Assembly: GCF_025642745.1 (NCBI RefSeq) | Contig: NZ_JANZKP010000003.1 | Span: 1-64,000, forward strand | Source: Cellulomonas sp. RIT-PI-Y | GTDB taxonomy: Bacteria; Actinomycetota; Actinomycetes; Actinomycetales; Cellulomonadaceae | Reading direction: 5' to 3' | Length of the DNA stretch: 64,000 nt | In this document: piece by piece, positions 17,919-63,074 of the stretch | How the letters are laid out: each line of letters starts with the position of its first letter | Numbering within the stretch: position 1 is the first letter of the stretch | The notes under the pieces: model-generated | Databases searched by the model: none | Told to the model about the DNA's origin: nothing | The model's input: the letters and a program-made list of their open reading frames with translations, nothing else | Program-made: the position numbers and the translations under genes

Positions 17919-17995
17919 GCCCGTGTCAGCGAAGACACTCTGGCACCTTTCACTACGGATCGTCCGGCACGTACCTGCCGGTGGAGGGAACGACG

Positions 17996-19120
<1,125 letters not shown>

Positions 19121-27636: not shown

Positions 27637-28131
27637 GTGGCCCGCAGCCGCCAGTCCACCCTCCGCCGCGCCTCCGCCGTCGCGGCCGTCGCCCTAGCCG
27701 CCGCACTGTCCGGCTGCTCGGTGACCAACCAGATCACCTCGCAGCTGGAGTACGACGCCTCGGACGGTGTCGGCGCCGCGCTGGGCGACGTGAGCGCGGA
27801 GAACCTGCTCCTGGTCGCGGCCGCCGCCGGTGAGCCGGGTGCCCTGCAGGGTGCGCTGAGCAACGCCGGTGACCACGCCGCCCTCGTCGAGCTGTCCACC
27901 GCGGACGACTCCACCACCGTCCGCGTCCCGGCGGGCGCGACCGTGCTGCTCGGCGGGTCCGAGGGCGAGGAGGTGCTCCTGGTCACCCCGGACGCCCCCG
28001 GCGCCACCACCGACCTGACCGTCGCCACCAGCGCCGCCGGCCAGGAGACCCTGCCGGTGCCGGTGCTCGACGGCACCCTGCCCGAGTACACCGACCTGGT
28101 GCCCGAGCCCGAGGCGTCCCCGGAGTCCTGA
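27637..28131 (+). CDS. LpqE-like lipoprotein
   Basis: 164-residue exported lipoprotein. A basic start and hydrophobic stretch end in the lipobox LSGC with Cys27 as lipid anchor. The mature part has the CSVTNQITSQ opening and immunoglobulin-like beta-rich sequence (VRVPAGATVLLGG). Its position, divergent from carD, is the same as lpqE beside carD in M. tuberculosis. The molecular function of that family is not established. The GTG start has GGGAG upstream and a hairpin terminator follows. Confidence 0.8.
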   Translation: MARSRQSTLRRASAVAAVALAAALSGCSVTNQITSQLEYDASDGVGAALGDVSAENLLLVAAAAGEPGALQGALSNAGDHAALVELSTADDSTTVRVPAGATVLLGGSEGEEVLLVTPDAPGATTDLTVATSAAGQETLPVPVLDGTLPEYTDLVPEPEASPES

Positions 28132-28161
28132 CCCGCGCCGCACTGCTCACCCGCACCGCGC

Positions 28162-28192
28162 ACGGCCCGGCACCCCGAGGGTGCCGGGCCGT
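28162..28192 (+). terminator. Terminator of the LpqE-like gene
   Basis: A 14-bp perfect stem (ACGGCCCGGCACCC) with a 3-nt loop, 30 nt past the stop codon. Confidence 0.8.
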
Positions 28193-28340
28193 TCCGCGCC
28201 TGTTGCGGGCCCACCAGGTGCGCCCGGTTCCCACGGTCCCCGGGTCCCCGGTTCGCCGGTTCGCCGGTTCGCCTTGATCCTCGGTTCGCCGGGTCGCCCT
28301 GGTCCCCGGGTCACTGGCTCTCCCAGGCCCCGTGCCCGCA

Positions 28341-28393
28341 GCCGAGGTCGGCAGTCCGCACCAGAATCGGCCCGGCGAACTGCCGACGTCGGC
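28341..28393. repeat. 53-bp nested-palindrome element, copy A
   Basis: The left arm GCCGAGGTCGGCAGTCCGC and right arm GGCGAACTGCCGACGTCGGC form a long imperfect hairpin (17 of 20 positions), and each arm is itself palindromic around TCGG/CCGA. Copy B at 60996-61048 has the same length and arm spacing. Confidence 0.75.
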
Positions 28394-28396
28394 GCC

Positions 28397-28431
28397 AACT
28401 GCCGACATCGGTGGCAGCTGCCGAGTTCGGT
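28397..28431. repeat. Extra 16-nt half-units following copy A
   Basis: AACTGCCGACATCGGT (28397) and AGCTGCCGAGTTCGGT (28416) repeat the right arm of the 53-bp element at an exact 19-nt period (arm centres 28387, 28406, 28425). Confidence 0.65.
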
Positions 28432-28616
28432 ACCTCCGCCGCGACGTCGGTCTCTCGGGTACCGATCTGGGCACCGATGTACCGAACTGGTGCTGGAGCG
28501 CCGGGCTGGGCTGGGCTGAGCCAGAGCTGGACGCACCAGAGCCGAGCCGCAGCAGAGCCGGGCGCACCAGAGCCGAGCGAACCCGGGCGCACGGGCGGCG
28601 GGGCCGCCGGTGCCGA

Positions 28617-29396
28617 TCAGCCGAAGCGGCCGGAGATGTAGTCCTCGGTGGCCCGCTCGCGCGGGGAGGAGAACATGGTCGCGGTGTCGTCGATCTCGAT
28701 CAGGCGCCCCGGCTCACCGGTCCCGGCGATGGTGAAGAACGCGGTCTTCTCCGACACTCGTGCAGCCTGCTGCATGTTGTGGGTGACGATCACGATCGTG
28801 TAGTCGTTCTTGAGCTCGGCGATCAGGTCCTCGATCGCCAGGGTGGAGATCGGGTCCAGCGCGGAGCAGGGCTCGTCCATCAGCAGCACCTGCGGCTTCA
28901 CCGCGATGGCGCGGGCGATGCAGAGCCGCTGCTGCTGGCCACCGGACAGGCCCGAGCCCGGCCGGTCCAGGCGGTCCTTGACCTCGTTCCACAGGTTGGC
29001 GCCGCGCAGCGACTGCTCCACCAGGTCGTTGGCCTCGGACTTGGAGATCCGGCGGTTGTTCAGCCGGATGCCCGCGAGCACGTTCTCCGCGATGGACATG
29101 GTGGGGAACGGGTTCGGCCGTTGGAACACCATGCCGACCTGGCGGCGGACGGCCACCGGGTCGATGTCCGAGCCGTACAGGTCCACGCCCTCGACGGCGA
29201 CGGTGCCCTCGACCCGGGCGCCGGGGATCACCTCGTGCATCCGGTTGAGGGTGCGCAGGTAGGTGGACTTGCCGCAGCCGGACGGGCCGATGAACGCGGT
29301 CACCGAGCGGGGCTCGATGGTCATGTTCACGTCGGCCACGGCGCGGAAGGCGCCGTAGAAGATGTTCAGGTCCTTGACGTCGATGCGCTGTGCCAT
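28617..29396 (-). CDS. pstB: Phosphate ABC transporter ATPase
   Basis: Energises high-affinity phosphate import. The 259-residue subunit has Walker [10 protein letters not shown], the PstB-type FQRPNPFP Q-loop, signature LSGGQQQRL, Walker [14 protein letters not shown] and switch His in VTHNMQQA. It is the last gene of pstSCAB, 37 nt after pstA, with AAGGA before the ATG. The palindrome-rich gap follows its stop codon. Confidence 0.97.
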
Positions 29397-59931: not shown

Positions 59932-60825
59932 ATGACCGACTACGGACACGACCTGCTGTTCGGCACCTTCCTGACCCCGACCGCCGCCGCCCCCGAGCGG
60001 GTGGTGGCTCTGGCGCAGCAGACCGAGCAGGCCGGACTCGACCTCGTCACCTTCCAGGACCACCCCTACCAGCCCGGTTTCCTGGACACCTGGACCCTGC
60101 TGAGCTGGGTCGGTGCGGTCACCTCCACCGTGCGGATCGCCCCCAATGTCGCGAACCTGCCGCTGCGGCCCCCGGCGGTGCTGGCCCGGTCGGCGGCGAC
60201 CCTCGACCGGCTCACCGGCGGACGGGTGGAGCTCGGGCTCGGCTCGGGTGCGTTCTGGGACGCGATCGTCGCGATGGGCGGACCGCGGCGCACCGCCGGT
60301 CAGGGCGTGGACGCGCTGACCGAGGCCGTCGCCGTGATCCGGGCCCTGTGGGACACCGAGCAGACCGCGCGGCTGGACCTGCCCGGTGCGTACTACCCGG
60401 TGGCGGGCGCCAAGCGCGGACCCGCACCGGCGCACCCGATCGGCATCTGGCTCGGCGCGTACAAACCCCGGATGCTGCGGCTGACCGGCACCTCCGGCGA
60501 CGGCTGGCTGCCGTCGATGGGCTACCTGAAGAGCCTGGACGACCTGACCGAGGGCAACCGCCGGATCGACGACGCCGCGCAGGCCGCCGGACGACCGGTC
60601 ACCGCCGTGCGTCGGCTGCTCAACATCAACGGGCAGCTCACCAGCCGGGCAGGCGACGCCCTGCTGGTCGGGCCCCCGGAGCAGTGGGTGGAACAGCTCG
60701 CGGTGCTGGCCCTGCAGTACGGGATCAGCGGGTTCGTGCTGGCCGCGGACGATCCGACCCTGATCGCCGCGTACGGGCAGGAGATCGCCCCCGCCGTGCG
60801 CGCGCTGGTCGAGGCGGAGCGGTGA
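59932..60825 (+). CDS. LLM-class (luciferase-like) flavin/F420 oxidoreductase
   Basis: 297-residue barrel oxidoreductase. LLFGTFLTPTA begins strand 1, GLDLVTFQDHPYQPGFLDTW holds the cofactor-side His/Tyr loop, NVANLPLRPPAVLARSAATL and GGRVELGLGSGAF follow, and the C-terminal GPPEQWVEQLAVLA is typical. It overlaps the fusion gene by GTGA, so the two are translated together. It is the intact relative of the LLM half of that fusion. Substrate unknown. Confidence 0.88.
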   Translation: MTDYGHDLLFGTFLTPTAAAPERVVALAQQTEQAGLDLVTFQDHPYQPGFLDTWTLLSWVGAVTSTVRIAPNVANLPLRPPAVLARSAATLDRLTGGRVELGLGSGAFWDAIVAMGGPRRTAGQGVDALTEAVAVIRALWDTEQTARLDLPGAYYPVAGAKRGPAPAHPIGIWLGAYKPRMLRLTGTSGDGWLPSMGYLKSLDDLTEGNRRIDDAAQAAGRPVTAVRRLLNINGQLTSRAGDALLVGPPEQWVEQLAVLALQYGISGFVLAADDPTLIAAYGQEIAPAVRALVEAER

Positions 60826-63074
60826 GCGATCTCGGACTGCCGCTGCAGCTGGGAGTCTGGCTCCCGACCGATGTCGACACCGACCCCGCCGCCCGCGCGC
60901 TGGCCGCCGAGCACGCGGGCCTCGACCTGGTGGCGGTCGGCGGTCGGGTGGACCTGGTGCAGACCGGCACCGACGCCCGAGATCGGCAGTCGGCGCCCGA
61001 GGTCGGCAGTCCGCCGGGCGCTTCCCGGGGCGAACTGCCGAGTTCGGCGGAGCAGGGCGCTGAGGTTGCGGACGGTGCGGACGGTGCGGACGACGACTGG
61101 ACTGTCGCCGCGTGGGTGGCGGCGCGGACGGCCACCATCCGGCTGCTGGTGGCCGTCGACGCGCAGCACCGCCCCGCGACCGTGACGGCACGGGCGGCGG
61201 CGGGTCTGGACCACCTGGCCGGTGGCCGGGTGGACCTGGTGCTGACCGGCACGGACCCGGCGGTGCTGCGTGAGGCGATCGCGGCGGTACGCGGGACGTG
61301 GGCGGCCGCCGACCCGACCCCGCTGCACCTGGACGGCGTGCATCACCGGGCCGACGGTGCACGGCGCGGACCGGCACCGGCGCACACCCCCGTGCTCGGC
61401 CTGTCCGCAACCGGTTCGGCGCCCGCCGAAGTGCGGACGCTCGGCGCGCAGTGGGCCGACCTGTGGTGGTCGGGGACCGTCGACGACGCGACCCCGCTCG
61501 CCGAGGCCGCGCGCACCGCCGGCCGGGAGCCCGCCGAGGTGCGGATCGTGCGCACCGTCGGATCGGACGCGACCCCCGAGGAGGTGGCCGCGCTGGTGCT
61601 GTCCGGCCGGGCGTCGACGATCCTGCTGGACGGCGACGACCCGGAGTGGGCGCGCACCGTCGCGCCCCGGGTCCGCGCCCTGGTCGACGCGGGCCGCGAG
61701 CTCGCCGGCACCCGGGTGCGTCAGCCGCGCAGCGCGGCCGTGCGGACGGCCCGGCGGCCCGGGATCGACTACGACGGCATCCCGGCCGAGCTGGTCGTGG
61801 ACGCGGTGGAACCCGGGGACGCGGCCTATGCCACCGTCCGGTCCGGCTACATGCGCGGCGGCAGCCCGGGTCTGGTGCTGCGCCCCGCGGACACCGCCGG
61901 GGTGGTCACCGCGCTGGCGTGGGCCCGGACCCAGGACGTGCCGCTGGCGGTCCGGTCCGGCGGGCACGGGATCAGCGGTCGGTCCACGAACGACGGCGGG
62001 ATCGTGCTGGACGTGGGACGGCTGAACCGGATCGAGGTGCTGGACCGGGCCTCCCGTCGGGTGCGGATCGGCCCCGGCGCCCGCTGGGGCGAGGTCGCCC
62101 AGGCACTGGAGCCGTACGGCTGGGCGATCACCTCGGGCGACTCCGGCGGCGTCGGAGTCGGCGGGCTGGCCACCGCGGGCGGGATCGGCTTCCTGGTCCG
62201 GGAGCACGGACTGACCCTGGACCACCTGCGGTCGGTCGAGATCGTGCTGGCCGACGGCAGCGTGGTACACGCCTCGGAGACCGAGAACACCGAGCTGTTC
62301 TGGGGCGTGCGAGGCGCGGGCGCGAACCTGGGGATCGTGACCGGCTTCGAGTTCGTCGCGGACCCGGTGACCGAGGTCGGCTTCGCCCAGCTGGTGTTCG
62401 ACGCCACCGACCTGGAGTCGTTCCTGGTCGACTACGGCGCGCTGGTCGAGGCGGCGCCGCGGGACGTCACGCCGTTCGTGCTGATGGGCCGGCCCCAGGG
62501 CGGGCGGATCTACGCCCAGGTGATGGCGATGGTCGACAGCACCGACCCGGAGGTCGTGATCGACCGGTTGCAGCCCTTCGCTCAGCTCGCACCGCTGGTG
62601 CAGCAGCAGGTGCAGCTCCTGCCGTACAGCGCCGTGGTGGTCGCACCGGACGAGCAGCACCAGGGCGAGGGCGAGCCGGTCAGCCGCTCCGGGATGATCG
62701 AGCATCTGACCCCCGGCTTCGCCCGGGACGCGGCGGCTCTGGTCCGCAGCGGTCACACCTACTTCTTCCAGATCCGGGCCGCCGGAGGCGCGGTGGCGGA
62801 CGTCCCGGCGGAGGCGACCGCGTACGCACACCGGTCGGCCAACTTCTCCGTGGTCGCCTTCGGGGCGAGCCGGCACCGGCTGGACGCGGTGTGGGACGCG
62901 ATGGCCGGGCACTTCTCCGGCATCTACTCCAGCTTCGAGACCGACCGCCGCCCGGAGCGGCTGGCCGAGGTGTTCCCCGGCCGGACACTGGAACGGCTGC
63001 GCGCGCTCAAGCGGCGCCTCGACCCGGAGGACGTGTTCCGACACAACTTCTCCGTGGCTGCGGGCGACGACTGA
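60822..63074 (+). CDS. LLM-domain and FAD-linked (berberine-bridge type) oxidoreductase fusion
   Basis: 750 residues in one open frame. Residues about 1-295 are a luciferase-like domain; about 305-750 are an FAD-binding oxidoreductase with RSGGHGISGRSTNDGG (histidine for covalent FAD), GDSGGVGVGGLATAGGIGF and a BBE end DPEDVFRHNFSV. The cysteine used for bicovalent FAD is not seen. Between GLDLVAVG and DDWTVAAWVAAR, where the upstream LLM protein has DHPYQPGFL, about 50 unrelated residues are inserted, partly encoded by a 53-bp palindromic element. The start is GTG overlapping the previous stop. The LLM half may be inactive or altered. Confidence 0.85.
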   Translation: MSDLGLPLQLGVWLPTDVDTDPAARALAAEHAGLDLVAVGGRVDLVQTGTDARDRQSAPEVGSPPGASRGELPSSAEQGAEVADGADGADDDWTVAAWVAARTATIRLLVAVDAQHRPATVTARAAAGLDHLAGGRVDLVLTGTDPAVLREAIAAVRGTWAAADPTPLHLDGVHHRADGARRGPAPAHTPVLGLSATGSAPAEVRTLGAQWADLWWSGTVDDATPLAEAARTAGREPAEVRIVRTVGSDATPEEVAALVLSGRASTILLDGDDPEWARTVAPRVRALVDAGRELAGTRVRQPRSAAVRTARRPGIDYDGIPAELVVDAVEPGDAAYATVRSGYMRGGSPGLVLRPADTAGVVTALAWARTQDVPLAVRSGGHGISGRSTNDGGIVLDVGRLNRIEVLDRASRRVRIGPGARWGEVAQALEPYGWAITSGDSGGVGVGGLATAGGIGFLVREHGLTLDHLRSVEIVLADGSVVHASETENTELFWGVRGAGANLGIVTGFEFVADPVTEVGFAQLVFDATDLESFLVDYGALVEAAPRDVTPFVLMGRPQGGRIYAQVMAMVDSTDPEVVIDRLQPFAQLAPLVQQQVQLLPYSAVVVAPDEQHQGEGEPVSRSGMIEHLTPGFARDAAALVRSGHTYFFQIRAAGGAVADVPAEATAYAHRSANFSVVAFGASRHRLDAVWDAMAGHFSGIYSSFETDRRPERLAEVFPGRTLERLRALKRRLDPEDVFRHNFSVAAGDD
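60996..61048. repeat. 53-bp nested-palindrome element, copy B, inside the fusion gene
   Basis: The left arm contains CCGAGGTCGGCAGTCCGC, identical to copy A at 28341. The right arm begins GGCGAACTGCCGA as in copy A, and arm centres are 41 nt apart in both. An additional related palindrome, CCCGAGATCGGCAGTC, precedes it at 60976-60991. It is translated in frame. Confidence 0.75.

Follow-up and report, generated by a model that had tools for sequence, protein, structure and literature searches.

The 64,000-nucleotide window (the entire stretch of DNA from Cellulomonas sp. RIT-PI-Y that was analysed) carries two copies of a palindromic repeat, one in the gap between convergent genes (element 1) and one within a coding region (element 2). 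The initial annotation had placed both copies and listed strings that they share, and the letters of the window bear this out, with the CCGANNTCGG cores lying 41 bp apart in each copy (28342/28383 and 60997/61038). Its description of a 53-bp palindrome with inverted arms holds for the core, which is composed of a 19-bp arm, a 15-bp loop, and an inverted 19-bp arm, but not for the whole element, because more units adjoin both cores (Table 1). Element 1 (28341-28431) comprises four units, in which one inverted 19-bp unit is followed by the 15-bp loop and then by three direct units that repeat every 19 bp. Element 2 (60976-61048) runs in the opposite direction according to the unit alignment, and comprises three units: two direct units 20 bp apart, the loop, and one inverted unit. 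Genes were called with a codon-bias caller made for the analysis, and the ABC transporter ATPase that converges on element 1 is probably PstB. Stretches resembling the second palindromic family that adjoins element 1, with the core GAGNTCGGTAC, were also seen by eye at loci L031, L035, L214, and L218.

Table 1. Features at and around the two elements (window coordinates).
Feature	Position	Strand	Details
Separate hairpin after the 27637-28131 gene	28162..28193	+	Folding; counterpart hairpins in G062 and G097
Element 1, inverted arm unit A'	28341..28359	+	Unit alignment
Element 1, R1 match (53-bp covariance model)	28341-28393		E 4.6e-14
Element 1, 15-bp loop	28360..28374	.	
Element 1, arm unit A1	28375..28393	+	Unit alignment; starts 34 bp past the start of A'
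Element 1, direct unit A2	28394..28412	+	19-bp step
Element 1, direct unit A3	28413..28431	+	19-bp step; overlaps start of second-family stretch
Second palindromic family stretch	28423..28490	+	GAGNTCGGTAC / GTACCGANNTC; similar-looking, 2+2 palindrome by eye; adjoins/overlaps element 1
ABC transporter ATPase gene	28617..29396	-	Convergent right-hand neighbour of element 1
Element 2 host gene	60822..63074	+	Bac_luciferase-like + FAD_binding_4/BBE, 750 aa
In-frame stretch, 138 bp	60949..61086	+	No counterpart in the matching G062 gene
Element 2, direct unit	60976..60994	-	20 bp from next unit
Element 2, arm unit A1	60996..61014	-	
Element 2, R1 match	60996-61048	-	E 3.7e-14
Element 2, inverted arm unit A'	61030..61048	-	Offset 34

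The word CTGCCGANNTCGG, with up to one mismatch allowed, occurs 13 times in the window compared to a mean of 5.08 in shuffled sequence (1 of 100 shuffles reaches 13). Its exact form occurs 46 times in the 3.52-Mb genome (G000) and once for a reversed control; 39 of the exact words are located in arrays, one is at a contig end, and six are isolated. A covariance model built from 15 cores (R1) matches 18 places in this genome at E below 1e-7, three of them outside the training cores. The initial annotation had named two lone copies at chance frequency as the outcome that would speak against a repeat family, and with 46 words against 1 in the control and 18 strong copies this is not what the genome holds. 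One contig breaks at a unit (L046, the end of G000:C56), so the draft may understate copy numbers.

When the stretches read are scanned by position weights, with a background of 2 units per 36 kb of letter-shuffled sequence, 23 clusters emerge in this genome and at least 46 in a sister species (G097), although some weak ones (L213, L214, L216, and L217) could be part of the second family. The stretches from the sister genome were taken from the matches listed, and thus counts there, including its total of at least 45 cores, are lower bounds. In both genomes the element consists of one inverted unit, the 15-bp loop, and one to eleven direct units. The 34-bp offset at the inverted junction is the same in the two species (21 of 22 junctions in this genome and 43 of 44 in the sister), whereas the direct step is 19 bp in this genome (36 of 44 steps) and 20 bp in the sister (113 of 142). 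In addition, five junctions in the sister genome are of the other kind (><) and represent a few composite clusters. At L035 (2612-2816), an element and approximately 80 bp of its flank form a tandem duplication with a 133-bp step.

Comparisons between species reveal that elements are present at some sites and absent from matching ones. The array at L041 sits in a convergent gap, and the matching gap is short and element-free in both G097 and a third species (G062). Two elements are present at L035 where the sister has none, and none is present at L036 where the sister carries an array. The coding copy, element 2, forms an in-frame insert in its luciferase-like/FAD oxidoreductase gene and has the same layout in the sister, where the step is likewise 20 bp, but it is absent from G062, whose gene is 138 bp shorter at this point. 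When the element-free versions of the L041 and coding sites are aligned, extra unalignable flank is present and neither of these two sites shows a clean target-site duplication of the kind expected of a MITE. For these reasons, and because the searches made identified no mobilising enzyme, we infer insertion rather than observe it. In the convergent gap of G062 that matches the location of element 1, there is an extra called gene (L251, 18988-19965).

Ten sites common to this genome and its sister permit the cores to be compared directly, although such counts lean towards sharing because the sister stretches were taken from the matches listed. Orientation agrees at nine of the ten. Arms at common sites are 0.821 alike, compared to 0.790 for random partners (45 of 2000 draws reach this value), whereas loops are not more alike than by chance (0.507 versus 0.511). 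At every one of the eight common intergenic sites where both genomes have tandem units, the step adjoining the core measures 19 bp in this genome and 20 bp in the sister. Farther from the core, steps in the sister vary, and L192 includes one of 19 bp. The L032 site is also common to the two species.

The elements favor particular positions relative to genes. Among 69 clusters from this genome and its sister, 42 are in convergent gaps, 24 in co-directional gaps, and one in a divergent gap, while two are inside genes; by comparison, 105 element-free gaps of at least 60 bp include only 11 convergent and 38 divergent examples. The second copy within a gene is found in a GH43 gene of the sister genome. 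Rickettsia palindromic elements (RPE) likewise have copies inside genes. Within the window, one of nine convergent gene pairs has an element. At this site a separate hairpin precedes the position of the element in the matching gaps of all three species, including the G062 gap that lacks an element, with folding energies of -39.7, -42.0, and -45.9 kcal/mol. A consensus scan of 28100-28650 found no T-run terminator, such that a canonical intrinsic terminator is not evident in that interval. Additional hairpins beside elements were seen by eye at L033, L035, L049, and L211.

Other Cellulomonas genomes commonly carry a 68-bp palindrome in which two units 19 bp apart are followed by two inverted copies (2+2), and which can form a stem of approximately 32 bp. 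Plus and minus unit pairs are 36 bp apart at 14 of the 15 loci that hold both, and in C. terrae (G098) this spacing holds for 21 of 22 forward matches. The form found in this genome keeps this 36-bp register between its cores. We located 59 elements of the 68-bp form, of which 21 are convergent, 24 co-directional, 5 divergent, and 4 inside called genes, with 5 at stretch ends left unclassified. In 13 of the 21 convergent cases, the element lies no more than 41 bp from the ends of the genes on both sides.

The distribution of the family centers on Cellulomonas. Fifty-two stretches with a tandem pair come from named genomes, including 43 from Cellulomonas, 5 from Promicromonospora, Cellulosimicrobium, and one Micrococcales MAG, and 4 single other records. 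R1 matches 48 of 81 genomes of the genus at E 0.01, many of them weakly. In an order-wide draw, 10 of 396 genomes match at E 1e-4, and seven of these belong to the same family. Among the other three, L269 contains a 2+2 palindrome built on a different core, whereas no such palindrome is apparent by eye in L270 or L271. The L269 palindrome (approximately 1500-1570, in a genome of another family in the order) has the same 0/19/36/55 spacing by eye but the core CGAGNTCGACAT. A phylum-wide draw, which held only 10 other genomes from the same order, produced the 68-bp layout with two mismatches in 4 of 396 genomes. One of these is the present genome, and the other three contain no arm sequence by eye and equal the number matched by the reversed control (three genomes). 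Neither of two patterns has an exact match among the viral contigs, and the L041 array has no blastn match among plasmids and phages; the L269 element has three partial matches of about 35 bases among plasmids. A repeat finder applied to G062 did not include the element among the largest families listed.

The folding data differ between the two forms. For element 1, the folding energy of the 53-bp core is -33.4 kcal/mol (z -4.85). However, no significant covariation is present among the cores of this genome (21) or its sister (45), where none of the 26 pairs in either set exceeds z 2.1, and it is the arm sequence that is kept. The initial annotation had also described each arm as palindromic in itself. 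This symmetry is kept in this genome and its sister, where position 8 is a T in 19 of 21 and 45 of 45 cores, respectively, whereas the wider family varies at that position (columns 6 and 25 of the A2 alignment described next) and does not keep it.

For the 68-bp form, we aligned the 50 of 59 elements that score at least 34 of 40 (A2). Because this set was picked by its conserved columns, the free columns alone provide a fair test. Overall, 84.2% of cells pair compared to 77.7% after shuffling, and nested pairs include 156 cells changed on both sides compared to 88.6 (0 of 500 shuffles). In the columns unused in selection, 382 of 600 combinations are Watson-Crick compared to 264.8 expected (0 of 2000). 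These free-shuffle figures are inflated by shared ancestry, and the non-nested NN pairings, too, lie above free shuffles (z 5.0 and 4.7). When shuffling is confined within species, the four NN pairs give z values of 3.8, 2.4, 3.9, and 1.8, whereas whole arms give 2.8 (outer) and 1.9 (inner), which are near the values of 1.8 and 1.5 for non-nested pairings. Thus, the nested hairpin of the 68-bp form appears to be supported mainly at its NN positions, with a modest excess within species. Positions 12 and 57 fail to pair in 28 of 50 elements. At L268 (1470-1560), from another genus of the family, a very long near-perfect hairpin (-78 kcal/mol, z -15.1) has both outer units changed alike.

We hypothesize, with moderate confidence and from sequence comparisons, that these are REP-like non-coding palindromic elements of Cellulomonas and its near relatives that have been spread by some factor and that probably act at transcript ends. 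New copies would arise when the hairpin form is inserted through some factor, and arrays would then lengthen by local duplication. The latter step is suggested by the greater similarity of units within arrays than between them (0.789 versus 0.726, and 0.841 versus 0.787; 0 of 1000 permutations in each case). Between gene ends, the hairpin would be tolerated, and it would probably serve to terminate or protect transcripts arriving from either side. This putative role is best supported for the 68-bp form because of the frequent proximity of both gene ends noted above, and is weaker at the window site because the separate hairpin could already end transcription there. Several results weigh against the overall reading: the searches that identified no mobilising enzyme and the two sites without a clean target-site duplication, the absent covariation in the 53-bp cores, the modest within-species excess and the frequent mismatch at 12-57 in the 68-bp form, the hairpins standing beside elements, the 5 divergent and 24 co-directional elements of the 68-bp form, and the single element among the nine convergent pairs of the window.

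A distinctly less probable explanation is that the elements would be sequence-conserved, bidirectional transcription terminators that do not move, for which the TRIT class of M. tuberculosis offers a comparison. This possibility overlaps our preferred reading except on mobility. It accommodates the bias towards convergent gaps, the closeness of both gene ends to the 68-bp form, and the very stable hairpins at L117 (-77.7 kcal/mol) and L268. It is at odds with the copies inside genes and with the absence of elements from matching sites. Also unfavorable are the separate hairpin beside element 1, the lack of a T-run at that site, and the presence of an element at only one of the nine convergent pairs in the window.

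We consider it fairly unlikely that the arrays are instead sites for a sequence-specific dsDNA-binding protein, such as a chromosome organiser or insulator, with the hairpin as a by-product of inverted site order. Such a protein would explain why the letters of the arms are conserved in both genomes while pairing at variable positions is not (in the sister, pairs 16/38 and 14/40 have z -1.4 and -0.2), and would fit the fixed offsets and array layout. However, with approximately 10.5 bp per turn of the DNA helix, neither the 19 and 20-bp steps nor the 34 and 36-bp offsets keep to a single helical face. The nested pairing in the 68-bp form and the copies inside genes also count against this explanation, and regulator sites are unusual in the gaps between convergent genes.

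Quite unlikely as well is a pure by-product, in which slippage during replication, template switching, and gene conversion would have generated the palindromes and tandem units in rapidly evolving intergenic sequence, with neither function nor mobility. The similarity of units within arrays is as expected from such processes, as are the other simple repeats visible by eye in the same gaps and the loops that are no more alike at common sites than at random. Yet many unlinked sites, in different species, carry this arm with these offsets, and slippage alone cannot carry a sequence to new sites. Moreover, for any two copies drawn from this genome and its sister, the average identity is 0.769 across arm letters and 0.475 across loop letters, which likewise speaks against a pure by-product.

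The initial annotation had compared the element to REP/REPIN repeats and had looked to a RAYT-like transposase. The likeness in anatomy and location stands: the elements are hairpin-capable inverted doublets in many copies, mostly extragenic, rare in divergent gaps, and gained or lost between species. The link to RAYT and the GTAG tag fails. PF01797 has no match in this genome and one among 81 genomes of the genus (G004, which itself lacks an R1 match at E 0.01), whereas 5 of 14 known genomes used as a positive control were matched. GTAG is absent from core ends in this genome (0 of 21), its sister (0 of 45), and the 68-bp form (0 of 59), where its reverse complement CTAC occurs 0, 1, and 2 times, and both are absent from array ends (0 of 23 and 0 of 46). 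By raw counts, CGTC is found at 4 of 21, 3 of 45, and 15 of 59 core ends and at 7 of 23 and 11 of 46 array ends, and its reverse complement GACG at 0, 2, and 15 core ends and 6 and 1 array ends; CGTC at a minority of ends is not a constant tag. A canonical REPIN moved by RAYT (TnpA-REP) is therefore highly improbable despite the inverted doublet, variable loop, mostly extragenic placement, and tens of copies, given that PF01797 is absent from both this genome and its sister and that GTAG is missing from core and array ends. The family is best read as REP in the broad sense, outside the RAYT-linked family.

Passages on known classes permit several comparisons. GTAG-tagged, RAYT-linked REP/REPIN sequences (PMC3116915, PMC3733652) are likewise short inverted hairpin doublets in tens of mostly extragenic copies, but the Cellulomonas family lacks both RAYT and GTAG, has one-sided direct units at a 19 or 20-bp step, and adopts the nested 2+2 form elsewhere in the genus. 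CGTC-tagged REPs and RPE (PMC3733652) are similar in being without a known dedicated transposase, but differ in that CGTC marks only a minority of Cellulomonas ends. The passages of that source tie REP-type repeats to RAYT enzymes or leave them without a known enzyme, and Actinobacteria are absent from them; its main text makes no mention of Cellulomonas, actinobacteria, Streptomyces, or Mycobacterium. BIMEs of enterobacteria (PMC2817692) are also composite intergenic arrays of short palindromic units, but these units alternate in orientation, whereas Cellulomonas arrays usually have one inversion followed by direct repeats, with the exception of the few composite clusters. Strong hairpins past stop codons are shared with terminators that lack poly-U (PMC8355165), a study in which a heading states that poly A/U trails are unnecessary. 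Unlike those terminators, the Cellulomonas elements share primary sequence at unlinked sites, have fixed offsets, and include copies inside genes. The titles and abstract openings of the literature matches listed contain no description of a Cellulomonas palindrome family.

Two further searches concern other classes. A DNA uptake sequence is not supported, as isolated exact words account for 6 of 46, and relatives have 2 to 25 exact words in all. Rfam models at gathering scores have no match at the elements in the window; for six loci examined at E up to 1, four matches were obtained, two of which overlap elements (L071, L079) at scores far below gathering.

A more specific and decidedly doubtful idea is that the direct arrays are written by a dedicated template-copying or hairpin-processing activity with a species-dependent step length. 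Its basis is the difference in step (19 bp here, 20 bp in the sister) at eight of eight sites, together with a constant 34-bp offset and matching orientation at nine of ten. The coding copy, which is kept in frame, has a 20-bp step in both genomes. A change in unit length at many unlinked sites calls for interlocus conversion, array regrowth, or replacement, and simple replacement is disfavoured because orientation is unchanged. If true, an enzyme would be resetting the unit length of a dispersed repeat throughout the genome.

A high-GC actinobacterial repeat with fixed geometry, no RAYT, in-frame copies in genes, and a species-specific step presents a testable case. The Cellulomonas repeats may exemplify both the spread and the concerted change of a repeat by a non-RAYT route. 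They are also candidates for two-way transcript-end elements, in a group with few known T-run terminators.

Two minor observations concern sequences beyond the family. Other short simple repeats crowd the same intergenic gaps by eye at L044, L210, and L214. In the window itself, an msiK RNA (RF01747) is matched with 63.1 bits at 17938-17996, directly before the gene called at 17996.
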